DNA of 64,000 bases from Candidatus Palauibacter polyketidifaciens. GTDB taxonomy: Bacteria > Gemmatimonadota > Gemmatimonadetes > Palauibacterales > Palauibacteraceae. Below the pieces are notes generated by a model that worked only from the letters and a program-made list of their open reading frames with translations, was not told the DNA's origin and did not search any database. Shown in pieces: positions 45,348 to 57,794 of this stretch. The position numbers and the translations under genes are program-made. Where the stretch lies: contig NZ_CANPVO010000015.1 in assembly GCF_947581785.1 (NCBI RefSeq), forward strand, positions 124,001 through 188,000, read 5' to 3'. The first letter of the stretch is position 1. Each line of letters begins with the position of its first letter.

Positions 45348-46532
45348 TCAGTTGTAGGCCGGGAGTCCCGTGGCGTCGTGTCCGAGGATCAGGGAATGGA
45401 TGTCGTGGGTGCCCTCGTACGTATAGACCGACTCCAGATTCGCCATGTGACGCATCGAGGCGTATTCGGCGAGAATCCCGTTCGCGCCGAGCAGCCGCCG
45501 CGACTCGCGGGCGCACTCGCACGCCATGTTCACGTTGTTGCGCTTCGCGAGCGAGACGTGCTGCGGCCGCATCGTGCCCTCGTCCTTCATCCGGCCGAGC
45601 CGGAGGCAGAGAAGCTGCGCCTTCGTGATCTCGGTGAGCATGTCCGCGATCCGGACCTGCTGGATCTGGGTCTGCGCGATCGGCGTCCCGTCGAACTGCA
45701 CGCGGTTCTTCGCGTATTCGACCGACTCGCGATAGCAGCCCATGGCGGCGCCGACGGCCCCCCACGAGATCCCGTAGCGCGCCTGCGTCAGGCACTTCAA
45801 CGGGCTCTTGAGCCCCCCGCTGGCCGGGAGGACGTTCGCCCGCGGCACCCGCACGTCCTGCAGGACGAGTTCGGAAGTGTCGGACGCCAGGAGGGAGAGT
45901 TTCCCCTTCTGGTCGCTGGCGGAGAAGCCGTCGCGCCCCGTCTCGACGATGAAACCGCGGATCGAGCCGACGTCGTCCAGTTCCCCGGTCTTGGCCCAGA
46001 TCACCGCCACATCGGCCATCGAGCCGTTCGTGATCCACATCTTGGCGCCGTTGAGGACCCACTCGTCCCCGTCCTCGACCGCCCGCGTGATCATGCCGCC
46101 GGGGTTGGAGCCGAAGTCGGGCTCGGTGAGGCCGAAGCACCCGATGGACTCGCCGCTCGCCATCCGCGGCAGCCACTCGCGCTTCTGTTCTTCGGAACCG
46201 AAGGCGAAGATCGGGTACATGACGAGGGCGCCCTGCACGGAGACGAAGGAGCGGAGGCCCGAGTCCGCCCGCTCGAGTTCCTGCATGATGAGGCCGTAAG
46301 CCACGTTGTTTAGGCCGGCGCAGCCGTACTCCTCCGGGAGGTTCGCCCCGAAGAAGCCGAGTTCGCCCATCTGGGGGATGAGTTCCCGAGGGAACGTGCG
46401 TTCGATGTAGTGGTGGCCGATGATGGGCAGGACCTCCTGGTCCACCCACTCACGCACCAGATCCCGAATCGCGATCTCCTCTTCGTCGAGGAGCGCATCG
46501 AGATTGAAGTAGTCGACACCCTCGAAAGTCAT
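45348..46532 (-). CDS. Acyl-CoA dehydrogenase, glutaryl-CoA dehydrogenase-like
   Basis: 394 residues from ATG 46532. FAD-dependent acyl-CoA dehydrogenase fold. GLTEPDFGSNPGGM and TEPDFGSNP bind flavin, and the catalytic base glutamate is in VYTYEGTHDIHSLILG. The ADSGLRSFVSVQ segment and RHMANLE C-terminal pattern match glutaryl-CoA dehydrogenase (lysine and tryptophan degradation). The usual substrate-binding arginine appears in SGLRSF, so glutaryl-CoA is the best guess. The ATG overlaps the small membrane gene (ATGA). Confidence 0.88.
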   Translation of the reverse strand: MTFEGVDYFNLDALLDEEEIAIRDLVREWVDQEVLPIIGHHYIERTFPRELIPQMGELGFFGANLPEEYGCAGLNNVAYGLIMQELERADSGLRSFVSVQGALVMYPIFAFGSEEQKREWLPRMASGESIGCFGLTEPDFGSNPGGMITRAVEDGDEWVLNGAKMWITNGSMADVAVIWAKTGELDDVGSIRGFIVETGRDGFSASDQKGKLSLLASDTSELVLQDVRVPRANVLPASGGLKSPLKCLTQARYGISWGAVGAAMGCYRESVEYAKNRVQFDGTPIAQTQIQQVRIADMLTEITKAQLLCLRLGRMKDEGTMRPQHVSLAKRNNVNMACECARESRRLLGANGILAEYASMRHMANLESVYTYEGTHDIHSLILGHDATGLPAYN

Positions 46533-46795
46533 TCGCGAGTTTCTCCGGATTCCGGGCAGCGCGTGGCTGCGGGGTGAGGGACGGCGGACGAATCCGCGCG
46601 GAAACAATGGACGCCGAGCGCGACGCCGGCGGCGGCCAGGAGGATGCCCGCGGCGACTCCCGGCCAGCCGTACACGTGCGCGTTGATGACGAGGACGATC
46701 CCGACCATGGTGGCGAGCGCCGCGGCCGGAAGCCCCAGCACGGTCCGGATGCCGGCGCGCCTGCCGGGCCGCGCGCCTATCGGCCGAGCCGCCAT
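46529..46795 (-). CDS. Small two-helix membrane protein
   Basis: 88 residues. Basic N-terminus (ARPIGARPGRRAG), then two hydrophobic segments (AALATMVGIVLVINAHVYGW and AGILLAAAGVALGVH) and a polar tail. Its start overlaps the zinc-ribbon gene by 19 bp and its stop overlaps the dehydrogenase ATG, so it is translated in the same operon. No family recognised; function unknown. Confidence 0.55.
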   Translation of the reverse strand: MAARPIGARPGRRAGIRTVLGLPAAALATMVGIVLVINAHVYGWPGVAAGILLAAAGVALGVHCFRADSSAVPHPAATRCPESGETRE

Positions 46796-47097
46796 CGGGT
46801 GTAGCCCTTCACGACCTCGCGGCCGATGCGGAAGCCGAGATAGTACGCCGCCACAAGCGGCAGGCCCCACGCGTACGCCGGCAGGAAACCGAGGTCGGGG
46901 GAGGTGCGGAGCCAGATGACGACCCAGACGGCGAACGGCAGCGTGATGCTCGCGGCGACGACGTGGCGCCCGCGCCGCATCCGCCGCTGCATGCGGGGTC
47001 CGCAGGCCTCGCACCAGTCGTCGCGGTGCAGCTGTCCCTTGGGGAACATCTGGCCGCAGGCGCCGCACATCACGCCCTTGAAGTGAAGCTCTTCCAT
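46777..47097 (-). CDS. Zinc-ribbon membrane protein
   Basis: 106 residues from ATG 47097, which has GGAG nine bases upstream; an ATG at 47121 would add eight residues. N-terminal zinc ribbon with two CxxC knuckles (MCGACGQMF and WCEACGP), then two membrane segments (VVAASITLPFAVWVVIWL and PAYAWGLPLVAAYYLGF) and a basic end. Conserved function unknown. Lies between the isocitrate-dehydrogenase-like gene and the small membrane gene. Confidence 0.65.
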   Translation of the reverse strand: MEELHFKGVMCGACGQMFPKGQLHRDDWCEACGPRMQRRMRRGRHVVAASITLPFAVWVVIWLRTSPDLGFLPAYAWGLPLVAAYYLGFRIGREVVKGYTRWRLGR

Positions 47098-47145
47098 CCG
47101 CTCGCGCTCCGTGCCGATCATTCCGCGCCGGTCGTTCCGCCCCGG

Positions 47146-48180
47146 TCATTCACCGGCGGCATCCAGTCGTTCGATCACCGCGCCGGCGAACTCTGCCGTG
47201 CTCGCGGAACCGCCGAGGTCCGGGGTATGGGCGGCGCCGTCCTGCAGCGTCCGGTGCAGGGCGGCGCGGATGCGCGCGGCCACCCCGGGTTCATCGAGGT
47301 GGTCGAGCAGGAGGCAGCCCGCGAGCAGGAGGGAGGTGGGGTTGGCGATCCCCTTCCCCGCGATGTCCGGCGCGGATCCATGCACCGCCTCGAAGATCGC
47401 CGCCCGCTCGCCGAGGTTCGCGCCCGGCGCGAAGCCGAGCCCGCCGATGAGTCCGGCCACCTGATCGGAGAGGATGTCGCCGAACATGTTCTCGGTCACG
47501 ATCACATCGAAGCGGTACGGATCCAGCGCCAACTGCATCGCCGTTGCGTCCACGATCTTGTCGTCGAATTCCACCCTTCCCTCGTACTCGGCCGCGACGT
47601 TGCGCCCCACCTCGAGGAAGAGACCCTGCGTGTACTTGAGGATATTCGCCTTGTGGACCAGGGTCACGAGACGCCGGTTGTGGGCGAGCGCGTACTCGAA
47701 CGCGAAGCGGACGATGCGGCGCGACCCGTAGCGCGTAATGAGCATGACGGATTCGGCGACGGCGCGGGGGTCGTTCTCCATCCCGATGAAGTGCTCGATC
47801 CCGGCGTAAAGGCCCTCCGTATTCTCCCGCACGATGACGAGATCCACGTCCGGATAGCGGGCGGCCGGGAGAAGGGTGACTGCGGGACGGACGTTCGCGT
47901 AGAGATCGAAGTGCTTGCGGAGCGCGACGTTTACGGACCGGAAGCCGGAGCCGATGGGGGTCGTGAGCGGCCCCTTGAGCGCGACGCCGGTCGCCTCGAT
48001 CGATTCGAGCGTCGCCTGCGGAAGCGGCTCTCCGACCGTTTCCATGGCGGTGACGCCGCCGAGGCTCTCGCGCCAGCGGATGGGCGCGCCCGCAGCCTCC
48101 AGGATCGCGACGGTGGCTTCGGATATCTCCGGGCCAATGCCGTCGCCCGGGATCAACACGACGTCGTGTAGCGGTTTCAT
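47146..48180 (-). CDS. Isocitrate/isopropylmalate dehydrogenase family enzyme, NAD-isocitrate-dehydrogenase-like
   Basis: 344 residues from ATG 48180 (MKPLHDVVLIPGDGIGPEI). Beta-decarboxylating dehydrogenase. The substrate segment GSGFRSVNVALRKHFDLYANVRP has the S-x-N-x-x-L-R pattern of isocitrate dehydrogenases. RENTEGLYAGIEH, VHKANILKYT and the metal site ENMFGDILSDQ are conserved, as is VHGSAPDIAGKGIANP. Closest to mitochondrial-type NAD-IDH and homoisocitrate dehydrogenase. Substrate (isocitrate or homoisocitrate) is not settled. Two bp from an exported protein gene and near a LeuA-family synthase. Confidence 0.85.
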   Translation of the reverse strand: MKPLHDVVLIPGDGIGPEISEATVAILEAAGAPIRWRESLGGVTAMETVGEPLPQATLESIEATGVALKGPLTTPIGSGFRSVNVALRKHFDLYANVRPAVTLLPAARYPDVDLVIVRENTEGLYAGIEHFIGMENDPRAVAESVMLITRYGSRRIVRFAFEYALAHNRRLVTLVHKANILKYTQGLFLEVGRNVAAEYEGRVEFDDKIVDATAMQLALDPYRFDVIVTENMFGDILSDQVAGLIGGLGFAPGANLGERAAIFEAVHGSAPDIAGKGIANPTSLLLAGCLLLDHLDEPGVAARIRAALHRTLQDGAAHTPDLGGSASTAEFAGAVIERLDAAGE

Positions 48181-48182
48181 CG

Positions 48183-48794
48183 TCAGGAAGGTGCGAGTTG
48201 ATCGGCCACGCGCAACGCGAGCGTGGTGAGGGCGAACGGGGACGCGGCCTCCGCGACCGCCCCCGCGACGGGGCCGTGCCAGAGGACGGCGCTGCGCCGC
48301 ACGTCGATGATCGCGAGGCGCAGAACGGCCCGACGCTCCCGATACGAGACCGCGAGCGGCAGCACGACGAGGCGGGCTCCGAAGAGGGCCGCCACCTTGC
48401 GGAGCTGCGTGTGGAGCGGTTCGTAGAGTTGCGCCCGGGAATCCGGCGCGGTGAGCAGGCCCCGGTAGGCGAGTCGCCCCGGGTCGACGCCGATCGTCGG
48501 GTTGCGGGCGAGGCGAGCCTCCACCGCGGGCGCGAGAGCCCAGTGTGCGGCCCCCACTTCCTCTCCGAACGCAAACTCGATCTCGGCGTTGAGGAGGTCG
48601 ATCGTGCCCTCCGCGCTCTCCGTCCCCCCGATCCACGTCCCTCCGGGGTCCGGAAGGGCCGACTGCACCGGGAGGACGACGACCGGCACGCCCGCGGGCA
48701 CCGCCGGAGGATCGTCGGCCGGAGGCTGCTCGGCCGCCAGCGCCCCGGCTGAGAGAAGAGCCAGCGCGCAGGACGACACCGTCCGCCGTCTCAT
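48183..48794 (-). CDS. Exported protein of unknown function
   Basis: 203 residues with a signal peptide (SSCALALLSAGALAAEQ; cleavage near residue 21). The mature part has VPVVVLPVQSALPDPGGTW, LNAEIEFAFGEEVG, RLVVLPLAVSYRERRAVLRLAIIDVRRSAVLWHG and an end helix. The V-V-L-P pattern and a strand of paired hydrophobics resemble periplasmic DUF4136- or curli-assembly-like folds, but I do not recognise the family. Coupled to the synthase gene upstream (ATGA) and 2 bp from the dehydrogenase gene. Confidence 0.7.
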   Translation of the reverse strand: MRRRTVSSCALALLSAGALAAEQPPADDPPAVPAGVPVVVLPVQSALPDPGGTWIGGTESAEGTIDLLNAEIEFAFGEEVGAAHWALAPAVEARLARNPTIGVDPGRLAYRGLLTAPDSRAQLYEPLHTQLRKVAALFGARLVVLPLAVSYRERRAVLRLAIIDVRRSAVLWHGPVAGAVAEAASPFALTTLALRVADQLAPS

Positions 48795-50032
48795 GCCCGC
48801 GCCGCCGCGACGCGTGTGATCTCAGCTTCGATTTCCTCCTGCGAGAGTGTGTGATCGCACTTCTTGGCGAGCCCGAACACCGCCTCGCACAGCGTCTCGT
48901 CCCCCGCGTCGTATCCGTGCTGGCTCAACCAGAAGCGGACGTTGCTGAGGCCGGACACCGGAGAAATCTCGATGGTCTGTTTCCGTCCCACGATCGAAGC
49001 CGGGACGCCGCTGTAGACGCGGTCCTCCAGCCAGCCGTCCCCCTTCTGCATGGCCTTGATGATCGCGGCCGCGTGTACGCCGGTCCCCGTCCGGAAGGCG
49101 TCGTCCCCGATGACCGGATAGTTGTGGGGCACCTCGACTCCGCACATCTCCGCCGTGAGCCGGCAATAGTCCGAAAGCCGGTCGATCGGGTGATTGTGCG
49201 TCCCGAGCAGGTGAAGGTTCACGAGCAGCAGATCCATCTCGACATTGCCGATCCGCTCGCCGATGCCGAGCGCGGTGGCATGCACGCGGTCCACACCTTC
49301 CTCGATGGCCGCCAGCGCATTCGCCAGCCCGAAGCCGCGGTCCCGGTGTCCATGCCAGTCGATCTTCACGGACTCTCCCGTGCCGGCCACGATGTCCTTC
49401 GCGAAACGCACGAGTCGCCGCACGCCGTGGGGCGTCGAGTGACCGACGGTGTCCGCGAGACAGATCCGCCGCGCCCCCGCCTCGACCGCGGCCGAGAAGA
49501 GCCGGGCGAGCGTCCTGGGCCGCGACCGCGTCGTGTCCTCCGTCACGTACATGACGTCGAGTCCCTCGCCGATGGCGAACCCGATGGCGTCGCGCGTCGA
49601 GGAGAGGATCTGGTCGACATCCCAGTTCTCGGCGTACTGGCGGATCGGCGAGCTTCCGATGAAGGTGGCGACCTCGATTTTCAGACCGGTCGCCTGCTGG
49701 ACGCGCGCCACGGGTTCGATGTCGGCCCTGACCGTGCGGGCGGCCGCGTTGGCCCCGATCGGGAGTGCGCACTCGGTGATCTCCCGGGCCAGCGCGAGGC
49801 ACGACTCGTAGGCACGGGGGCCGGCGCCCGGAAGGCCGATGTCGACAGCGTGGATGCCGAGGTCCACCATGAGGTGGAGGAGTTCGATCTTCTTCTCGAT
49901 GGGCGGGTCCTTGACGGACGGATTCTGCAGGCCGTCGCGCAGTGTCTCGTCGTCTAGTTCGACGCGGGTCGCCTCGTAGTCGTGGCTCCCCGGAAGCGCG
50001 TTCCAGTCGTATATGAGTTCGTCCTGGCTCAC
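48791..50032 (-). CDS. LeuA-family (DRE-TIM) acyl-CoA carboxylate synthase without regulatory domain
   Basis: 413 residues from GTG 50032. Metal-dependent Claisen-condensing TIM barrel: DETLRDGLQNPSV (DRE motif), the IDWHGHRDRGFG metal HxH, and GIGERIGNVEMD, the LeuA signature. The helical subdomain follows (LSNVRFWLSQHGYD), but the roughly 130-residue C-terminal allosteric domain of isopropylmalate synthase is missing. It could therefore be isopropylmalate, homocitrate, citramalate or Re-citrate synthase. The neighbouring IDH-like gene fits citrate or homocitrate. Start overlaps the nucleotidyltransferase stop (GTGA). Confidence 0.85.
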   Translation of the reverse strand: MSQDELIYDWNALPGSHDYEATRVELDDETLRDGLQNPSVKDPPIEKKIELLHLMVDLGIHAVDIGLPGAGPRAYESCLALAREITECALPIGANAAARTVRADIEPVARVQQATGLKIEVATFIGSSPIRQYAENWDVDQILSSTRDAIGFAIGEGLDVMYVTEDTTRSRPRTLARLFSAAVEAGARRICLADTVGHSTPHGVRRLVRFAKDIVAGTGESVKIDWHGHRDRGFGLANALAAIEEGVDRVHATALGIGERIGNVEMDLLLVNLHLLGTHNHPIDRLSDYCRLTAEMCGVEVPHNYPVIGDDAFRTGTGVHAAAIIKAMQKGDGWLEDRVYSGVPASIVGRKQTIEISPVSGLSNVRFWLSQHGYDAGDETLCEAVFGLAKKCDHTLSQEEIEAEITRVAAARA

Positions 50033-51021
50033 GTCCGCTCGCCTTCGACGACCCCGTCGTCGCCCACGTTCACTCTTCCGCGCACGCCCCGCAGCGTCAC
50101 GCGGTCCCCGACGAGCGAATCTACGAGGTCGCAGTCTTCGATGACGCTGTCCGCGCCGACGATCGTGTGGCGGAGGCGCGACCCCCGGACCCGGCTTCCG
50201 GATGCCACGCTCACGTTGGGGCCGACCGCCGAAGTCTCGACGACGGCGTCCGCCGCGACCGCGATGGCGCCGTCGACGGCGACGGAGTCCGGGAGGTCCG
50301 GGTCCCCTCCGTGCCCGCGCTCGAGCATCGTCCGGTTCGTCTCGAGCAGCGTCTCGGGCTTCCCGCAATCAAACCAGCCGCCCACTTCCGCCGTATGGAG
50401 ACGTGCGCCACGGTCGATCATGTACTGGAAGGCGTCCGTGAGAAAGAACTCCCCGAGCCCGGGATCCCGGTCCATCACATGCCGAACCCCCTCGAACAGC
50501 AGCTCATGATCCTTCACGTAGTAGACGCCGATGTTCGCGAGCTTCGACACGGGTTCCGATGGCTTTTCGATGATCCGCTTCATGTATCCCGCTTCATCGG
50601 TGAGGATGACGCCGAACCGCTGGTAGTCCTCGACTTCCTTTGCCCAGATGATGCCGGACGCGGAGGCGTGGCGGTGCAGCACGCTGAAGTCGGCATCGAA
50701 GAGCGTGTCCACGAAGACGATGATGACCGGCCCGGTCACCCAGGGTTCCGCCAGCGCGACCGCGTCGGCCGTCCCCCGCTGGGTGGCCTGCTCCACGTAG
50801 GTGATCGAGAGGCCGGGGAACTCCTCGGCCATGAAGGCCCGGATCTGACCGGCGAGGTGCCCGGTGATGAAGATGAACTCGTCGACGCCCTCGGCTCTGA
50901 GCTGCTCGACAACGTAGGAGAGCACGGGCCGATTAGCCACGCGGAGCAAGGGTTTGGGACGGGTGTGGGTGTGGGGACGGACCCTTGTACCCATTCCCGC
51001 CAACGGTATTATGGCCTGCAT
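50029..51021 (-). CDS. NDP-sugar pyrophosphorylase-like nucleotidyltransferase
   Basis: 330 residues. The N-terminal nucleotidyltransferase starts MQAIIPLAGMGTRVRPHT with the PKPLLRVANRPVL signature and GTADAVALA, as in glucose-1-phosphate thymidylyl- and uridylyltransferases. The C-terminal third (about 245-325) is a left-handed beta-helix of hexapeptide-like repeats (AVAADAVVETSAVGPNVSV). Sugar and nucleotide specificity cannot be read. Stop overlaps the synthase GTG; no other sugar-pathway genes are in the window. Confidence 0.85.
   Translation of the reverse strand: MQAIIPLAGMGTRVRPHTHTRPKPLLRVANRPVLSYVVEQLRAEGVDEFIFITGHLAGQIRAFMAEEFPGLSITYVEQATQRGTADAVALAEPWVTGPVIIVFVDTLFDADFSVLHRHASASGIIWAKEVEDYQRFGVILTDEAGYMKRIIEKPSEPVSKLANIGVYYVKDHELLFEGVRHVMDRDPGLGEFFLTDAFQYMIDRGARLHTAEVGGWFDCGKPETLLETNRTMLERGHGGDPDLPDSVAVDGAIAVAADAVVETSAVGPNVSVASGSRVRGSRLRHTIVGADSVIEDCDLVDSLVGDRVTLRGVRGRVNVGDDGVVEGERT
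50985..51012 (+). promoter_or_regulatory. Candidate plus-strand promoter for the DUF1499-like gene operon
   Basis: TTGTAC (50985-50990) and TATTAT (51007-51012), spacing 16 bp, point to the plus strand. They lie inside the 5' end of the opposite nucleotidyltransferase gene. Predicted transcription start is near 51019, giving a leader of about 138 nt. The -10 is good and the -35 weak. Confidence 0.35.
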
Positions 51022-51612: not shown

Positions 51613-52520
51613 TCGGGCGATGGTCGTCCGGTGTGGCGGGCGCCGCCCTGATCCTCTCCGCCTGTGCAGGGCCTCCTCCGGATGGAACAGCGGAGGCTCG
51701 CGGAGAAATCGCCGGCGGCCCGCTCACGCCGGCGGTCGACGCACGGTATCTGACGCACCTGCTCTTCGCCGCCGACGACGGGACGACGTTCATCGGCTCG
51801 TTCGATCAGACGGCCGAGGGCGAAGATCTGCTCCTCGACTACGACGTGCGCCTCGCAGAAGGAGACGCGTGGCGGTCCCTCGTTCTGACGCACGACACGG
51901 TGTCCGTGGCCCGTGCGGCGTGGCGCCTTCTGCCTACGCCGGCGATGGCAGTGCGTATCGGCGACGCCGGCCAGGTCGTGAGCCTTCTGTTCACCGAACC
52001 CGACGGCGGAGGCACGGATTCGGTGCGTCTCGTCGCGGGCGAAGAGGTGTCCGTCTGGACCGGACCGACGGGGCAGCGCGAGTCGCTGGGGATCGCGGCG
52101 ATGGTGATGAACGACAGGACCGTGCCCGGCATCCTCTTTTTTCGTCGCGCCGCCCGGGCGCTGAGCATCCCCGGCGCGTCGACGGATGGCCGGACGTTCG
52201 TGTTCGCCGACTCGCTCGGGAACGGACTCGTCGTCCATGCGGGCACCATCGGCCAACCCACCGTTGCCCACACCTGGCTCCATGGGATAGAGGCGGCCTG
52301 GGGCGATGTCACGCTCGAATCGCCGGAGGCGGGTCGGACCGGGGGTTCGGACTCGGCCTGGCGGTTCGAGATCTCCGGTACGACGGTCCGCGGGAGCTTT
52401 CGGCCGCTGATGGACGGAGACCCCGGCGACGGGACGCTCATCCGCATGGAGGCCACCGTCTACGTCGGAACGGAAGTGCTTTACTTCAACGGGTTTGCCG
52501 CCACGCTGCCATCTCCCTGA
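51609..52520 (+). CDS. Lipoprotein of unknown function
   Basis: 303 residues from GTG 51609. Lipobox LILSAC with cysteine at residue 19. The mature part is beta-rich (YLTHLLFAADDGTTFIGSFDQT, GEDLLLDYDVRLAEGD, FRPLMDGDPGDGTL). No recognised domain, and no cysteines after the lipidated one. Overlaps both neighbours by one to four bases. Probably outer-membrane- or inner-membrane-tethered. Function unknown. Confidence 0.72.
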   Translation: MIGRWSSGVAGAALILSACAGPPPDGTAEARGEIAGGPLTPAVDARYLTHLLFAADDGTTFIGSFDQTAEGEDLLLDYDVRLAEGDAWRSLVLTHDTVSVARAAWRLLPTPAMAVRIGDAGQVVSLLFTEPDGGGTDSVRLVAGEEVSVWTGPTGQRESLGIAAMVMNDRTVPGILFFRRAARALSIPGASTDGRTFVFADSLGNGLVVHAGTIGQPTVAHTWLHGIEAAWGDVTLESPEAGRTGGSDSAWRFEISGTTVRGSFRPLMDGDPGDGTLIRMEATVYVGTEVLYFNGFAATLPSP

Positions 52521-54109
52521 TGGAATTCGACTGGCTGCGCGCCCTCGTCACGGTGGCCTTCGGCGCTCTGGCGGGCGGGATTACGAACCGGATCGCCGTA
52601 TGGATGATCTTCCATCCCTACCGTCCGCCGAAGGTTCTTGGCCGCCCCGTGCGCTGGCTGCAGGGAGCCGTGCCGAAGAATCAGAAGCGGCTGGCGGATT
52701 CGGTCGGTGGCGTCGTCGGCGGCGCGCTCCTCACGCCGGAAGACATCACCTCCGAACTGCGGCAACTCGAATCCGCCTTCAGGGAGCGGCTGCGGGAACT
52801 CGCGGTCGAACTCAGCGAGGGCGAGCAACCCGCGCTCGCCGACCTCCTCCCCGAGGCCGCGCTCGTGGAGGTCCGCACGATCCTCACGCAGATTCTCGGG
52901 CAGGGCCGGGAGTTCCTGGCGGGGACGCTGGATTCCCCGGACTTCGGGGACGAATCCGGGCGCCTCCTCGAATCGATCCGGGAGTCGCTGAGCGACGAAT
53001 CCCTTGCGCAGACGCTGGAGCCGGAACGGATCGCCGCCATCCGCGACACGATGGACGGCTGGCTCGCGCGGCTCGCCGATTCGTCCGCCTTGGAGATGAC
53101 GGTACGCCGCCATCTGGACGAGGCCGCGCGGCAACTGCTCAGGCCGCACCGGACCTTCGAGCAGCTGATTCCCGCGGGGCTCGTGGCCGCACTGGAGCAC
53201 GCGATCAAGGACTATCTCCCGGTCGCGATCGAGCGTTTGAGCCGACTGTTGGACGACCCGGATGCGAGGAAGCGGATCGAACACGTGCTCGGGGAACTGT
53301 TCGACCGCTTCATGCAGGATCTCCGCTTCCACCAGCGCGTCGTGGCCCGCCTCGTTGTCACCGAGGAAACGGTGACGCACGCACTCGATACCCTCCGGGA
53401 GGAAGGCGCCGACCGTCTCGGCGGCGTGTTGCGCGAACCGGAGGTCCAGACGGCGATCGCGCGGCACGTCAACGATGGCGTCGTCGAGTTCCTCCGGCAC
53501 CCTCCCTCCGAGGTCATCGGCGACGCGGGCGATCCCCAGGTCGAGAGCGCGCTCGATGCCTTGGCGGAGTGGCTCGTGAAGGCGGCGCGGGACCCGGGCT
53601 CGCGTGCCTTCCTGCTCGACCGGCTCGAGGGACTGCTTGAACGCTTCGGCGAGAGGAGCTGGGCGGACGTGCTGAATGCGGTTCCAGCCGACCGAGTGGC
53701 GGCCTCGCTCGCCGCGGGCTTTCGGTCCGACGCGGGACGCGTCCTCTTCGACTCGATCGCCGAGCCGATGGCGGACCGGCTCCTTCACACGCCGATCGGG
53801 CGGCTCGGGCGTTTCCTGCGCGAGGACGCCGCGGTACGGCTGGCGGATACGCTGGCTGCGCCCGCATGGGACTGGATCGTAAACCGGGTGCCTGAGGTGG
53901 CGAAGCGGATCCGGATCTCCGAACGTATCTCGACGAAGATCGAGAACTTTTCCATCGAGCGGATCGAACACCTTGTTCGCGATATCAGCCAGCGCGAATT
54001 CGACCTCATTGTGCGGCTCGGATACCTGCTCGGCGCCGGCATCGGCACCGGGCTCGTGATTCTGGATTCCCTCCCGGTACTCGAGTTTCTCCGGGGGCTG
54101 TTCGGATGA
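52520..54109 (+). CDS. DUF445 family membrane protein
   Basis: 529 residues from ATG 52520. The N-terminal hydrophobic segment LVTVAFGALAGGITNRIAVW has the family's G-x-x-T-N motif, followed by MIFHPYRPP; the C-terminal hydrophobic segment is LGYLLGAGIGTGLVIL. The long middle is helical and charged. The family is widespread and uncharacterised. The frame is open upstream, but this ATG overlaps the preceding stop and begins exactly where homology does. The end overlaps the Sco gene start (ATGA). Confidence 0.85.
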   Translation: MEFDWLRALVTVAFGALAGGITNRIAVWMIFHPYRPPKVLGRPVRWLQGAVPKNQKRLADSVGGVVGGALLTPEDITSELRQLESAFRERLRELAVELSEGEQPALADLLPEAALVEVRTILTQILGQGREFLAGTLDSPDFGDESGRLLESIRESLSDESLAQTLEPERIAAIRDTMDGWLARLADSSALEMTVRRHLDEAARQLLRPHRTFEQLIPAGLVAALEHAIKDYLPVAIERLSRLLDDPDARKRIEHVLGELFDRFMQDLRFHQRVVARLVVTEETVTHALDTLREEGADRLGGVLREPEVQTAIARHVNDGVVEFLRHPPSEVIGDAGDPQVESALDALAEWLVKAARDPGSRAFLLDRLEGLLERFGERSWADVLNAVPADRVAASLAAGFRSDAGRVLFDSIAEPMADRLLHTPIGRLGRFLREDAAVRLADTLAAPAWDWIVNRVPEVAKRIRISERISTKIENFSIERIEHLVRDISQREFDLIVRLGYLLGAGIGTGLVILDSLPVLEFLRGLFG

Positions 54110-54798
54110 GGCCGGCGCGCGTCGGCGTGCTCGGCGCCGTTGTGTGCAGCGTCGGTCTCGCCGTGTCCGCCTGCGCCTCACCCGACACGGCGATCGACCG
54201 CACGGAGGGCACGGGGGAGCTGCGCGGGCTCGCGCTCGAACAGCCGTTCGAGGTGCCGGAGTTCAGCCTCAGGGATTCCCGGGGGCGCCGGTTCGACTTC
54301 CGGCCGGAGACCGCGGGGTCGCTCACGCTGCTCTTCTTCGGTTATACGCACTGCCCCGACATCTGTCCGGTGCAGATGGCGGTGCTCGGCGCCGCGCTCG
54401 ACGATCTTTCGTACGCGGACCGCCGCGAGATCGAAGTCGTCTTCGTGACGACGGATCCCCAGCGCGACACGCCGGACCGGCTCCGGAGCTGGCTGGACCT
54501 CTTCGATGCGTCCTTCGTCGGCCTCAGCGGGGAGTTGGAGACGGTGAACGAGATCCAGGCCGGATTCCACCTTCCGCCGGCGCGGATCGAGGAGACCTCG
54601 CCCCCGCCGGGTGCGGGAGAGCCTTATCTGATGGGACACGCGACGCCGATCGTCGCCGTCACGGGCGACGGCGTGGCGCGGGCGCTGTACCCGAGCGGCG
54701 TGCGCCAGACCGACTGGCGTCACGACCTCCCCCTGCTCCTGCGCCTCAACCGGTCGGTTTCGCCGCCGGCGGGCGGAGCGGACACGAGCGGCGACTGA
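54106..54798 (+). CDS. Sco1/SenC/PrrC family copper chaperone lipoprotein
   Basis: 230 residues. Lipoprotein signal with cysteine at 23 (SVGLAVSAC). Thioredoxin-like fold with CxxxC in THCPDICPVQ (about residues 84-90), FVTTDPQRDTPDRL, and a conserved histidine in LMGHATPIVAV. Delivers copper or reduces the CuA site of cytochrome c oxidase. Downstream, after 9 bp, is a CtaG-like assembly protein, so the operon serves oxidase assembly; the oxidase genes themselves are not in the window. Confidence 0.92.
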   Translation: MRPARVGVLGAVVCSVGLAVSACASPDTAIDRTEGTGELRGLALEQPFEVPEFSLRDSRGRRFDFRPETAGSLTLLFFGYTHCPDICPVQMAVLGAALDDLSYADRREIEVVFVTTDPQRDTPDRLRSWLDLFDASFVGLSGELETVNEIQAGFHLPPARIEETSPPPGAGEPYLMGHATPIVAVTGDGVARALYPSGVRQTDWRHDLPLLLRLNRSVSPPAGGADTSGD

Positions 54799-54807
54799 GG
54801 CCACGCG

Positions 54808-55593
54808 ATGCAATGGTGGTGTGCGGCCCAGAGCATCCCGTGGGACTGGTCGTGGCGCCCCTATCCGGGCGTCTGGCTCTTCATCGCGTTCGTGTGCCTC
54901 GCCTATCGCGCCTTCACGCGTGGCGCCGCGCCTTCGCGACTCGAGATCGCCCGGTTCGCCGGCGGGGCGCTCGCACTCTGGATCGCGCTGGACTGGCCGG
55001 TGGGCGCGCTGGGCTCGGGATACCTGGCTTCGGTGCACATGGTGCAGTTCCTCCTCATCGCGCTGCTCGCCCCGCCTCTCCTCATCGCGGGGCTTCCCCG
55101 CGAGGCGCTGGAGCGAGTGCGCGGCGGCAGGGCCACCTCCGTCCTCGAGTTCCTCGCGCGACCGCTCATCGCGCTGCTCTTCTTCCACGCGATCGTCGTC
55201 GCGACGCACTGGCCGGAGGTCGTGGACGGCCTCATGGCTTCGCAGGCAGGCTCGCTCGCGCTCGACATGGCCTGGCTGGGCGGCGGACTCGCCTTCTGGT
55301 GGCCCGTCGTGAGTCCGGTCCCGCACCGGCCGCGTTTTCCGCTCGGCGTGCGGATCTGCTACCTGATCGCGAGCACGGTGTTGATGACGCTGCCGTATGT
55401 CTTCCTGACGTTCGCGGAACTCCCCTTCTACGCGACGTACGAACTCGCGCCTCCGGTGGGCACGCTCTCCGCGGGCGAAGACCAGCGGCTCGCGGGGCTG
55501 ATCATGCGGATCGGCGGAGGCACGATCCTGTGGACGGCGGCGGGCGTCGTCTTCTGGTTCTGGTACCGCTCCGAGAACGACGCCGCCCGCTGA
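54808..55593 (+). CDS. Caa3-type cytochrome oxidase assembly factor CtaG-like
   Basis: 261 residues with about six or seven membrane segments. It has the Caa3_CtaG pattern: WSWRPYPGVWLFIAFVCLAYR at the N-terminus, the histidine-containing SVHMVQFLLIALLAPPLLI, the HAIVVATHWPEVVD loop, and FWWPVVSPVPHRPRFP. The conserved histidines may hold copper, but this is not proven for the family. Forms an operon with sco. The stop is 12 bp from the opposite cutA stop. Confidence 0.88.
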   Translation: MQWWCAAQSIPWDWSWRPYPGVWLFIAFVCLAYRAFTRGAAPSRLEIARFAGGALALWIALDWPVGALGSGYLASVHMVQFLLIALLAPPLLIAGLPREALERVRGGRATSVLEFLARPLIALLFFHAIVVATHWPEVVDGLMASQAGSLALDMAWLGGGLAFWWPVVSPVPHRPRFPLGVRICYLIASTVLMTLPYVFLTFAELPFYATYELAPPVGTLSAGEDQRLAGLIMRIGGGTILWTAAGVVFWFWYRSENDAAR

Positions 55594-55605
55594 GGCGCGG
55601 TAGCG

Positions 55606-55926
55606 CTAGTCGTTCACCTGTTCGGTGACCCACTCCATGTAGGGTGGGGAGCCGGCGGCTACGGGGATGAAGAGAACCTCCGGGACGGCGTAGGGGTGGA
55701 GTTCGCGGATGCGGCGCTCGACGGCATCGCTGCGGGACGCGGTCGTCTTGAGGATACCGAGGGCTTCCGCTTCCTCGCATACCTCGCCTTCCCATCGATA
55801 GACGGAGGTCACGCGGTCGACGACGTTCAGGCAGGCGATGAGCCGTTCGTCGACGAGGACCCGGCCGATCCGCACGAGTTGTTCGCGGTCGGGCCCCGTG
55901 ACGAGCCCGGCCACGACATCGTTCAC
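55606..55926 (-). CDS. cutA: Divalent-cation tolerance protein CutA
   Basis: 106 residues from GTG 55926 (VNDVVAGLVTGPDREQLVRIG). The family core LIACLNVVDRVTSVYRWEGEVCEEAEALGILKTT (seen in pieces) and HPYAVPEVLFIPVAAGSPPYMEWV is complete. Trimeric small cytoplasmic protein; the historical link to copper tolerance is uncertain. The GTG overlaps the acyl-CoA synthetase stop (GTGA). Confidence 0.93.
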   Translation of the reverse strand: MNDVVAGLVTGPDREQLVRIGRVLVDERLIACLNVVDRVTSVYRWEGEVCEEAEALGILKTTASRSDAVERRIRELHPYAVPEVLFIPVAAGSPPYMEWVTEQVND

Positions 55927-57794
55927 GGGCGGTCTTGCTCTCTTTCGCGCCCGCTCATGGCGTCCTCGGCCCGCTCGTAGAGCGCTTCGATCGCGCCGGC
56001 GAAGCGGGTCTCGATCACGCGACGCTTGACCTTGAGCGTCGGCGTCAGCTCCCCGCCCTCGACGGTGAACGGACCAGGGACGAGGAGCACGTCGCGCGGC
56101 CGCTCGTAGTGCGCGAAGTCCCGGCAGCGTTCCCGCACGGCGCCTTCGATCATTTCCCGCGTCCGGGCGTCCGTGACGAGGTCGGCGTCCGCCGCTTCCT
56201 CGACGCCGTGCAATTCCGGGCGGACAGCCTCGAATTCGGGCACGACGATGACGATCGGGAACTTTCGTCCGTCGCCGAGCATCACCGCTTCCGCCACCAT
56301 CGGGTGCCGCTTGATCTCCGCTTCGACGGGCTGAGGGGCGATGTTCTTTCCGTAAGCGGTGATGATGAGGTCCTTCTTGCGATCCGTGATTCGGAGGTAC
56401 CCGTCCTCGTCGATCTCGCCCACGTCGCCCGTGTGGAACCAGCGGTCCCCGTCGATGGCTTCGACCGTCGCCCCGGGCTTGTTGTAGTAGCCCGCCATGA
56501 TCTGCGGCCCGCGGATGAGGATCTCTCCGTCCTCGGCGATCCGGATTTCGGTGCCTGGGATCGGTTTCCCGACCGTGCCGAGTCGGATGGCGTCGATCGG
56601 ATTGAAGCTGACGGCGGGCGAGGTCTCCGTGAGCCCGTAACCCTCGACGATGGGCAGGCGCGCGGCGAAGAAGAAGCGGGCCACGGCGGGAGAGAGGGGG
56701 GCTCCGCCGCTCACGAAGTAGCGGACCTCCCCTCCGGTGCGGGCGCGCAGCTTCGAGAACACGAGGCGGTCGGCGAGCGCGGACTGGAGCTGGAGACCCG
56801 GCCCGACCCGGCGACCCTCGAGTTCCGCCATCGCGCGGGCTTCGCCGACGCGACGCGCCCAGTTGAAGATCTTCTGCTTCGCGCCCCCCGCCTCCCGGGC
56901 GGTGGCTTCGGCCCTCTCGAGCACCTTCTCGAACACGCGCGGAACGGCGGCCATGAAGGTGGGCGAGACCTCGCCGAGGTCCCGGGCCACCGTGTTGGGG
57001 GACTCCGCGTACGCCACGGTGACCCCCGCCCGCCACATGATGTAGTGGCCGACCGTGCGCTCGAACACGTGCGCGAGGGGCAGGAGCGCGAGGGCCACGT
57101 GGGTGGAGTCGATCGGGAAGACCCGCAGCGCCATGTCCGCGTTCGAATGGAAGTTGGCGTGCGTGAGCATCACGCCCTTCGGGTCGCCGGTCGTGCCCGA
57201 GGTGTAGATGAGCGTCGCCAGATCTTCCGGACGCGTCTTTCGGGCGTGCGTTTCGTAGGTCGACGCGAGCGATTCGGGCGCGGACTCGCCGAGATCGGAG
57301 AGGGCGTCCAGCTGCATCGCGGCCAGCGAGGAGCCCTCGGGTGCGGTCACGGGCCCGAAGGCGATGGCCAGCTCCAGAGCGGGGAGGTCGTGTTCTACCT
57401 CCGCGACCTTGTCCAGCTGCTCCTGGTCTTCCACGAATACGGCTCGCGCACCGGAGTCCGCGAGGATGTAGCGAACCTGGTCGGCGGGAAGCACCGGATA
57501 GACGGGGACGGAAGTGAGCCCCGCCATGACGATGCCCCAGTCGGCCAGGGCCCACTCGAGGCGGGTCTGCGAGAGGATCGCGATGCGGTCGCCCGCCTCG
57601 AACCCTCGTGTCCGGAGCCCGAGCGCGATGGCGCGGGCGCGGCGTCCGATGTCATCGGTGGAGGTCGAAACCCAGACGCCGTCCGCTCCCCGCGTCCGCG
57701 CCGCATCATCCCGCGGCCGCGAGAGCCCGTCGAGGAAGAGGTCCGGCAAGGTGCCGGGCCGATAGTCGTCCGGGAGCGGGCTCGAGGCTTGCAC
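55923..57794 (-). CDS. Long-chain fatty-acid--CoA ligase (AMP-forming)
   Basis: 623 residues from GTG 57794. ANL superfamily: P-loop YTSGTTGDPKGVMLTHANF, VEGYGLTETSPAVSFN, GDRWFHTGDVGEIDEDGYL, and DRKKDLIITAYGKNI with the catalytic-lysine C-terminal domain (LTPTLKVKRRVIE). The layout and the LAHVFERTVGHY motif match FadD-like or Acsbg-like long-chain synthetases. Activates fatty acids for lipid synthesis or oxidation. Translated with the TPR gene 18 bp upstream; both follow the promoter at 58344-58371. Confidence 0.93.
   Translation of the reverse strand: MQASSPLPDDYRPGTLPDLFLDGLSRPRDDAARTRGADGVWVSTSTDDIGRRARAIALGLRTRGFEAGDRIAILSQTRLEWALADWGIVMAGLTSVPVYPVLPADQVRYILADSGARAVFVEDQEQLDKVAEVEHDLPALELAIAFGPVTAPEGSSLAAMQLDALSDLGESAPESLASTYETHARKTRPEDLATLIYTSGTTGDPKGVMLTHANFHSNADMALRVFPIDSTHVALALLPLAHVFERTVGHYIMWRAGVTVAYAESPNTVARDLGEVSPTFMAAVPRVFEKVLERAEATAREAGGAKQKIFNWARRVGEARAMAELEGRRVGPGLQLQSALADRLVFSKLRARTGGEVRYFVSGGAPLSPAVARFFFAARLPIVEGYGLTETSPAVSFNPIDAIRLGTVGKPIPGTEIRIAEDGEILIRGPQIMAGYYNKPGATVEAIDGDRWFHTGDVGEIDEDGYLRITDRKKDLIITAYGKNIAPQPVEAEIKRHPMVAEAVMLGDGRKFPIVIVVPEFEAVRPELHGVEEAADADLVTDARTREMIEGAVRERCRDFAHYERPRDVLLVPGPFTVEGGELTPTLKVKRRVIETRFAGAIEALYERAEDAMSGREREQDRP

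Follow-up and report, generated by a model that had tools for sequence, protein, structure and literature searches.

A LeuA-like synthase family with an apparently opened substrate gate and its possible part in 2-oxo-acid homologation in Gemmatimonadota

Introduction

Which 2-oxo acid does a LeuA-like synthase condense in a genome where neither a LeuA-class protein nor ilvC scores over its threshold? The question is raised by a 64,000-nucleotide stretch of Candidatus Palauibacter polyketidifaciens (hereafter the window; contig NZ_CANPVO010000015.1, positions 124,001 to 188,000, G000:C15:124001-188000 in our numbering). The window belongs to a 3.2 Mb Gemmatimonadota assembly, 97.3% complete, which we refer to as G000. 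The gene concerned lies at 48791-50032 of the window, and we use A' as a label both for the synthase that it encodes and for its family. A first-pass annotation had placed A' beside an isocitrate-dehydrogenase-like protein (IDH') and proposed that the two act as a Re-citrate synthase with isocitrate dehydrogenase or as a homocitrate/homoisocitrate pair, rather than in leucine synthesis.

We arrived at a different reading, which we hold tentatively and give somewhat less than an even chance. A' would homologate a hydrophobic 2-oxo acid, likeliest an arylpyruvate, with acetyl-CoA, and the product would pass through an acyl-CoA into β-oxidation. We infer the reaction, the order of the steps and the substrate from what we observe: the family and its separation from LeuA, CimA and NifV, the predicted fold, the catalytic residues, the lack of a regulatory domain and the gene associations.

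Results

Fold and catalytic residues

The sole Pfam match in A' is PF00682 (HMGL-like; residues 25-281, E 6.8e-45); because Pfam gives nothing else, the protein carries no LeuA regulatory domain. An AlphaFold2 model (mean pLDDT 94.1, pTM 0.91) aligned with the catalytic domain of the Sulfolobus homocitrate synthase 6ktq (Z 43.6, rmsd 2.6, 378 residues) and with the MAM synthase 6e1j (Z 41.7, rmsd 2.8, 376 residues). As modeled, the match covers the barrel and the helical subdomains, nearly the whole length of A'. A role as HMG-CoA lyase was rejected, as Claisen synthases align past the barrel at Z 34-44, while HMG-CoA lyases reach only Z 28-30.

We aligned 122 rows of the family, including a few repeated proteins, the window's own among them. 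R32 and D33 are present in 121 rows, the remaining one being a gap in a fragment, and E165, T195, H227, H229, H320 and Y340 are conserved in all 122. H227 and H229 fall in the stretch DWHGHRDRG, and we take them to be the metal-binding pair from their role in the superfamily. Arg232, in the same stretch, is likewise found in 122 of 122 rows, whereas the nine LeuA rows have Leu at that place; DAFRTxTGVHAAA and HGHxDRG are motifs specific to the family. With the PF00682 barrel, the catalytic Arg-Asp, the HxH motif, the catalytic Glu and the helical subdomains, A' qualifies by its sequence features as a DRE-TIM Claisen-condensing enzyme. The Pfam result, the conserved residues and the AlphaFold2 alignment thus bear out the earlier description of a kept catalytic core and helical subdomain with a missing allosteric domain.

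The curated equivalog models did not place A' among the named enzymes of this kind. It scored below the cut-offs for LeuA (TIGR00973, 161 bits against 599; best LeuA model, 199 against 517), homocitrate synthase (TIGR02146, 184 against 414; TIGR02660, 163 against 463) and the citramalate synthase CimA (TIGR00977, 115 against 450). The missing regulatory domain by itself decides nothing, since the LeuA-class proteins of the relatives (at least 300 bits against PF00682; found in 9 of 60 genomes) include three of 386-414 aa (L011, L013 and L016) besides six of 517-538 aa. True LeuA without a regulatory domain may likewise occur in the window's class, judging from these short proteins.

A distinct family

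A' is present in 49 of the 60 relatives, three times as a fragment, and is spread across the window's class. Its members score 138-164 bits against PF00682 (the fragments lower), distinct from LeuA. A scan of genome contigs with a divergent query returned at least 569 candidate relatives, the best 80 of which we examined as loci. Their record titles name Myxococcota, Acidobacteriota, Gemmatimonadota, Eisenbacteria, Methylomirabilota, KSB1 and others, and their identity to the divergent query is 52-64% for all but four, which reach at least 93%. In the phylum of G093, A' was found at E ≤1e-70 in 3 of 79 sampled genomes. Two contigs carry titles at odds with their A' genes: L080, titled Gammaproteobacteria, has an A' identical to that of the Gemmatimonadota relative G057, and the A' of L112, titled Euryarchaeota, groups with Myxococcota-type sequences. 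Both are probably mislabeled or mis-binned, as far as their sequences tell.

In a midpoint-rooted tree, A' and a protein of Streptomyces sp. KN37 grouped in a single clade (support 0.915) outside LeuA, CimA and NifV; the branch leading to it is long, at about 1 substitution per site. The references were nine plasmid proteins (a Nostoc one named here, eight named by their records) and seven LeuA-, CimA- and other PF00682 proteins of relatives; they are annotated rather than characterized, and HphA, Lys20 and Re-citrate synthase are not among them. The Nostoc plasmid match (H20) served as the NifV reference; its record is unannotated and, by eye, it lies beside a nitrogenase-like gene. Seven of 59 LeuA-like open reading frames (ORFs) were removed before alignment, their core being already represented. 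Searches of the open-licence PMC literature listed nothing on the A' family or the proposed route. By these sequence comparisons, the enzyme kind to which A' belongs is a known one, but the family itself is distinct and uncharacterized.

The substrate pocket

The positions that select the substrate have been described for HphA, the 2-benzylmalate synthase of cyanobacterial L-Phe/L-Tyr homologation. According to that report (PMC12961565), five of them read Ala73/Asp157/Ala159/Met186/Ser242 in HphA, His/Arg/Thr/Ser/His in homocitrate synthase (its Table 1) and Leu/Glu/Ser/Asn/Glu in isopropylmalate synthase (IPMS). The report also states that A73 governs the substrate choice of HphA, that A73L lifts activity on the IPMS substrate 17-fold, and that HphA homologues vary at A73, D157 and M186 far more than homocitrate synthase and IPMS do.

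We transferred these positions to A' via its alignment with 6ktq and found Ala97/Met161/Val163/Cys191/His251, all on barrel strands of the AlphaFold2 model. The gate residue Ala97 is kept in 121 of 122 rows, with a gap in the remaining one; Val163 and His251 occur in every row, Cys191 in 102 and Met161 in 74, most other rows having Ala, Thr, Cys or Ser at the last position. Where homocitrate synthase binds the distal carboxylate of 2-oxoglutarate through His/Arg/Thr(Ser), the family has Ala, Met (or another small or uncharged residue) and Val. In the nine LeuA rows the five positions are occupied by Leu, Glu (seven) or Gln (two), Ser, Asn and Glu; with position 122 included, positions 97/122/161/163/191/251 read mostly L/H/E/S/N/E in LeuA against A/A/M/V/C/H in A'. 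Given its Ala, Met, Val and Cys residues, the pocket of A' looks hydrophobic, with its gate opened.

Positions 122 and 161 of A' occur chiefly as the pairs Cys+Met (32 rows), Ala+Met (24), Tyr+Ala (20), Gly+Met (11), Tyr+Cys (8) and Met+Thr (7). This trade-off in bulk, uncorrected for relatedness, is at most suggestive of a pocket kept at constant size.

Partner genes: a fused dehydratase, B' and thiolases

Two genes elsewhere in G000 encode candidate partners. One is a LeuDC-like fused dehydratase (G000:C52:1566-3602), where a weak match to the small domain (28 bits) lies N-terminal to the large aconitase domain; the other is a LeuB-like dehydrogenase, which we call B' (G000:C21:15178-16239). 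The fused dehydratase (at least 445 bits) is found in 42 of the 60 relatives and B' (at least 338 bits) in 44. A' and the dehydratase occur together in 39 relatives, A' alone in 10, the dehydratase alone in 3 and neither in 8 (p=0.0016); the corresponding numbers for A' and B' are 41, 8, 3 and 8 (p=0.0005). Both p values are uncorrected for kinship, the co-occurrence thresholds of 440 and 338 bits were picked after the lists had been seen, and the fragments in G026 (19.9 bits only), G029 and G030 were scored as A' present.

The same kinds of genes recur close to A'. Eleven of the 80 loci have LeuC-, LeuD- or LeuB-type genes at most 4.7 kb from A', and L146 has the run A'-LeuC-LeuD-LeuB, followed 0.7 kb on by a BktB-like thiolase. 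Many of the loci end at contig ends, so such neighbor counts are lower bounds, and the gene limits in the locus maps were set with a simple ORF picker rather than with a gene caller. Two Myxococcota loci, L091 (708 aa) and L094 (658 aa, same cluster), likewise have a dehydratase of the long fused form. A thiolase lies near A' in 19 of the 80 loci, 18 times on the same strand and at most 2.1 kb upstream. In 12 regions of the class around B', a thiolase comes after B' in nine, as in G000, and a 3-hydroxybutyryl-CoA-dehydrogenase-type gene in eight, sometimes with one gene between; the single one scanned, that of L180, exceeds the PRK07819 cut-off. At the recognition motif, four of six B' proteins have LLGxR, as in isopropylmalate-type dehydrogenases, and none has the S-x-N-x-x-L-R of isocitrate and homoisocitrate dehydrogenases. 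From this gene content, which recurs in several phyla, the fused dehydratase and B' make better candidate partners of A' than IDH' does.

Around the fused dehydratase itself, eight regions (L182-L189) showed no steady neighbor by eye; genes of the 2-oxo-acid dehydrogenase E1-beta and E2 types lie about 4 kb from it in G000 itself (L064). A gene for an M20-type peptidase (by eye) directly follows A' in 9 of the 80 loci, of the Acidobacteriota type (L108, L113, L127, L131, L137, L139, L151, L157 and L158).

A comparable triad is found on the plasmid of Streptomyces sp. KN37 (L160, 14884-19152), where a gene for an A'-like protein (43% identical), an aconitase-family protein and a dehydrogenase lie within a nonribosomal peptide synthetase (NRPS)/polyketide synthase cluster. 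This triad perhaps makes an unusual extender unit via 2-oxo-acid homologation. The cluster also holds two crotonyl-CoA carboxylase/reductases. On plasmid pSTRVI01 of Streptomyces violaceusniger (L217, 5989-11565), LeuA-like, LeuC, LeuD, aminotransferase and dehydrogenase genes adjoin an NRPS, a set that looks like an amino-acid homologation cassette.

Links to aromatic metabolism

Beside A', an IOR_alpha match (IorA, indolepyruvate:ferredoxin oxidoreductase) exceeds its cut-off in L110 and L153 and, by 0.6 bits, in L045, and the A' genes of these loci belong to three separate clades. In L110, two PaaK-like ligases fall short of their cut-off (627 and 552 bits against 646), and a quinohemoprotein amine dehydrogenase exceeds its own; L153 has an acyl-CoA dehydrogenase beside A'. 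In the Acidobacteriota loci L116 and L123, A' stands in an array with BcrC-, BcrB- and two BcrA/D-like genes, an alcohol dehydrogenase, Oah, a Dch-like hydratase, an SDR and a TPR protein; Oah scores 548 bits in L116 (cut-off 464), the Dch-like hydratase 253 against 292, and an activase match is over its cut-off. In L159, a BcrC match exceeds its cut-off (485 against 421); its gene lies on the strand opposite A', some 5 kb away. Within the window's order, G034 and G036 combine A' and IorA with BcrC/BcrB/BcrAD-like genes, and G034 adds an IorB-like gene. An aromatic substrate for the window's own A' would be a transfer from these relatives, helped by the shared pocket.

In the loci L045 (3112-12873) and L073 (6346-13740) of Gemmatimonadota relatives, benzoyl-CoA-reductase-like genes form one run with A' and an indolepyruvate:ferredoxin oxidoreductase; the L045 subunits score under the curated cut-offs. 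PF06050 genes lie 2-5 kb from A' by coordinates in G039.

Alternatively, A' could elongate an aliphatic 2-oxo acid, short or branched (2-oxobutyrate, 2-oxoisovalerate or 4-methyl-2-oxovalerate), and the product could be β-oxidized or serve as a branched fatty-acid primer. We consider this unlikely, although the hydrophobic pocket, the IPMDH-like B' and the hydroxybutyryl-CoA dehydrogenase and thiolase genes near it would suit such a substrate. The acyl-CoA dehydrogenase of L153 is nearest to acryloyl-CoA reductase, below the cut-off, and L145 has a hydroxybutyryl-CoA dehydrogenase over the cut-off, a biotin-carboxylase-like gene and a gamma-carboxygeranoyl-type hydratase below its cut-off. The IorAB, PaaK-like and benzoyl-CoA-reductase-like neighbors would be left unexplained, and the usual route to 2-oxoisovalerate is closed where ilvC is missing, though valine could supply this acid.

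Leucine and citrate genes of the host

A' is the sole PF00682 protein in G000, and nothing over the ilvC cut-off was found there; ilvC is over the cut-off in 9 of 60 genomes. LeuA-class proteins and ilvC go together (8 of 9 each, p=3e-8), whereas A' shows no association with ilvC across the same 60 genomes (p=0.34). Leucine synthesis is therefore unlikely for A', which lies outside the LeuA clade in a genome with neither ilvC nor a LeuA-class protein. The first-pass annotation had asked for a separate leuA-leuB-leuCD set and gltA: G000 has a LeuB and a PF00285 protein and lacks a LeuA-class protein, and A', with no second leuA-type gene in the genome, still does not cluster with LeuA. Its dismissal of leucine synthesis is upheld by the single PF00682 protein, the lack of ilvC and of any ilvC association, and the place of A' outside LeuA, CimA and NifV.

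A feedback-free IPMS for leucine would fit the gene order of L146, the single PF00682 protein in 8 of 37 genomes reached via the loci, and the three equally short LeuA-class proteins among nine. Besides the gene content of G000 and the tree, the five substrate-selecting positions are unlike those of IPMS and A' stands alongside a LeuA-class protein in 6 of the 60 relatives, which makes such a role very unlikely. The LeuB of G000 is isolated (G000:C12:811-1848; L060 775-1857; TIGR00169, 424 bits, cut-off 353) and adjoins a thiC-like frame (by eye) and the contig end. It is possibly a remnant of a lost leucine pathway.

Re-citrate synthesis by A' together with the adjacent IDH' appears highly improbable. 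G000 contains AcnA, an NADP-dependent isocitrate dehydrogenase (NADP-IDH) and one PF00285 protein, which is over the TIGR01800 cut-off (469 bits against 421). TIGR01800 spans citrate synthase II and 2-methylcitrate synthase alike, so a second citrate synthase may be needed, and IDH' is indeed isocitrate-dehydrogenase-like, with the S-x-N-x-x-L-R pattern; the A' operons of G012 and G013, however, have no IDH'.

The operon in the window and its conservation

The genes around A' are listed in Table 1. The four-base overlaps of A' with its neighbors read GTGA upstream and ATGA downstream, so A' and both neighbors are probably co-translated. The 203-aa protein after A' has no Pfam or NCBIfam match, the small protein with Cys pairs has no Pfam match, and the acyl-CoA dehydrogenase exceeds no NCBIfam cut-off; the last scores 459 bits to 2eba, and its best solved relatives are glutaryl-CoA dehydrogenases. 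Outside the operon, the window has DUF445-like, SCO1-like, caa3-assembly-like and acyl-CoA synthetase genes (by eye) at 51620-57794, whose place beside the A' operon is kept in G001, G005 and G011 of the genus.

Table 1 Positions of the A' gene, its marked residues and neighboring genes in the window
Feature	Position	Strand	Remarks
Nucleotidyltransferase	50029..51021	-	directly upstream of A', 4-nt overlap; adjoins A' in most family f1 regions
A', LeuA-like DRE-TIM Claisen-condensing synthase	48791..50032	-	413 aa; GTG start at 50032, TGA at 48791
Ala97 of A'	49742..49744	-	substrate-selecting gate: His in homocitrate synthase, Leu in IPMS, Ala73 in HphA
DWHGHRDRG, A' residues 225-233	49334..49360	-	holds H227/H229; position computed from ORF
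Function-unassigned protein	48183..48794	-	203 aa; 4-nt overlap with A'; between A' and IDH'
IDH', NAD-isocitrate-dehydrogenase-like	47146..48180	-	344 aa; SVNVALR at residue 82
Small protein, Cys pairs (zinc-ribbon-like) and hydrophobic stretches	46777..47121	-	nature read by eye
Glutaryl-CoA-dehydrogenase-like acyl-CoA dehydrogenase	45348..46532	-	conserved neighbor of A'

We compared 25 other regions with an A' gene (17 of 20 and 8 of 15 examined regions of relatives). The glutaryl-CoA-dehydrogenase-like gene belongs to the A' gene run in 13 of them, and in 11 of these 13 IDH' does so too. IDH' is closest to NAD-isocitrate dehydrogenases (417 bits to 6lky, against 271 for the best homoisocitrate dehydrogenase), and it reaches no NCBIfam cut-off (PRK08997, 431 bits against 510). 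By its motif and its nearest solved relative it is isocitrate-dehydrogenase-like, as the first-pass annotation had said of this gene, which lies one gene from A' in the same operon.

The pairing of A' with IDH' is not obligatory. The A' operons of G012 (L067) and G013 (L065) lack IDH', and the small Cys-pair protein stays where IDH' is absent. G013 keeps the fused dehydratase and B'; among the matches listed, its sole other candidate of IDH' strength scores 347 bits to LeuB and 155-179 to IDH' and is therefore LeuB-like. G012, which is 85% complete, keeps B', and the fused dehydratase is absent among the matches listed. We rejected a strict A'/IDH' pair on the grounds of these two operons and the LeuB-like nature of the leftover G013 candidate. 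The two pairings offered earlier find little support: a Re-citrate synthase with isocitrate dehydrogenase is not plainly required beside the TIGR01800-type protein, AcnA and NADP-IDH, and for homocitrate with homoisocitrate the carboxylate residues are replaced and IDH' is closer to NAD-isocitrate dehydrogenase.

In a homocitrate-type route, A' would instead condense 2-oxoglutarate with acetyl-CoA, and the dehydratase with IDH' or B' would yield 2-oxoadipate, which would pass via glutaryl-CoA, formed by a 2-oxo-acid dehydrogenase, to two acetyl-CoA through the neighboring glutaryl-CoA dehydrogenase, hydratase, hydroxybutyryl-CoA dehydrogenase and thiolase. The glutaryl-CoA-dehydrogenase-like gene of 13 of the 25 regions, the hydratase beside such a gene in G043, the gene runs of B', thiolase and hydroxybutyryl-CoA dehydrogenase, and the standing of 6ktq as best sequence and structure match all agree with it, and Arg249 of A' might stand in for the lost Arg. 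Set against this are the change of the pocket from His/Arg/Thr/Ser to Ala/Met/Val/Cys, the motif of B' (isopropylmalate-type in 4 of 6, and never that of isocitrate dehydrogenase), the loss of IDH' where A' remains and the aromatic gene links, which it does not explain. On balance we find a homocitrate-type role rather unlikely.

Discussion

A dedicated homologation set feeding CoA-thioester degradation appears, tentatively, a better reading than pathways built on A' and IDH', with arylpyruvate as the likeliest single substrate class. A' would condense acetyl-CoA with a hydrophobic 2-oxo acid, for example phenylpyruvate or 4-hydroxyphenylpyruvate, to a substituted malate, which the fused LeuD-LeuC-like dehydratase would isomerize. 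Oxidative decarboxylation by B' would then give a 2-oxo acid longer by one carbon, and a 2-oxo-acid dehydrogenase or ferredoxin oxidoreductase would convert it to an acyl-CoA. Acyl-CoA dehydrogenase, hydratase, hydroxyacyl-CoA dehydrogenase and thiolase would shorten the latter, in the case of phenylpyruvate to benzoyl-CoA and acetyl-CoA.

Taken further, this could amount to a bacterial route that homologates and then β-oxidizes, in which the arylpyruvates of Phe and Tyr pass via 3-arylpropionyl-CoA and thiolase cleavage to benzoyl-CoA or 4-hydroxybenzoyl-CoA. Acetyl-CoA would be catalytic, a dedicated LeuABCD-like set would replace Pad-type α-oxidation, and A' would be the first enzyme in Myxococcota, Acidobacteriota and Gemmatimonadota. 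We regard this specific version as possible, yet doubtful.

Several observations weigh against homologation of a hydrophobic substrate. In the pocket, His251 is the residue that Sulfolobus homocitrate synthase has, four of the five HphA positions differ in A' (Met161/Val163/Cys191/His251), and Arg249 (113 of 122 rows) could face the pocket; the LeuA-like protein of the plasmid cluster of LeuC, LeuD, aminotransferase and NRPS genes has Leu at the gate. Among the partners, the fused dehydratase is absent from 10 and B' from 8 of the 49 genomes with A', two of six B' proteins have LMTIR or VARLR at the recognition motif, and A', the dehydratase and B' lie on three contigs in G000. Regarding the aromatic links, the BcrB match of L123 (321 bits against 487) and the G034 subunits (BcrC 261 against 421, BcrB 218 against 487) are below their cut-offs, and the A' proteins of L116, L123, L150, L156, G034 and G036 form a clade of their own, which is not the window's. 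G000 has no PF06050 benzoyl-CoA-reductase-type protein, and the glutaryl-CoA-dehydrogenase-like neighbor of A' in the window suits a glutaryl-CoA route better. For these last three reasons, the separate clade, the lack of PF06050 and the neighbor, the glutaryl-CoA route stays a live rival.

Among known systems, HphA resembles A' as a LeuA-type synthase with a dedicated isomerase and dehydrogenase and with Ala at the substrate-selecting gate. It differs at the other four positions (Asp/Ala/Met/Ser against Met/Val/Cys/His) and serves peptide natural products (PMC12961565), whereas A' sits among genes of CoA-thioester degradation. Homocitrate synthase (Sulfolobus 6ktq, Thermus 2ztj) shares the barrel and subdomains and is the best match, but its carboxylate-binding residues are not kept and the family motifs are found in A' alone. 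MAM synthase (6e1j) is likewise a Claisen enzyme of 2-oxo-acid elongation aligned along most of A', though only 24-25% identical and belonging to plant glucosinolate synthesis. LeuA has the DRE-TIM core and catalytic residues in common with A', but it usually carries a regulatory domain, forms a separate clade and is linked to ilvC. IDH' shares the substrate motif of the NAD-isocitrate dehydrogenase 6lky and, unlike enzymes of that type, lies between A' and a glutaryl-CoA-dehydrogenase-like gene.

Their best model matches would label A' proteins as isopropylmalate or homocitrate synthases and so credit leucine or lysine synthesis to organisms without ilvC. If the substrate is indeed an arylpyruvate, phenylpyruvate would be joined to benzoyl-CoA without Pad enzymes; a study on Desulfococcus multivorans (PMC5109826) left the final step of that organism's own route, from phenylglyoxylate to benzoyl-CoA, unclear. 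The catalytic residues of A' are invariant and its dehydratase, dehydrogenase and thiolase partners recur, so the family may mark a carbon route that is common but undescribed, and which perhaps feeds aromatic amino acids into energy metabolism.

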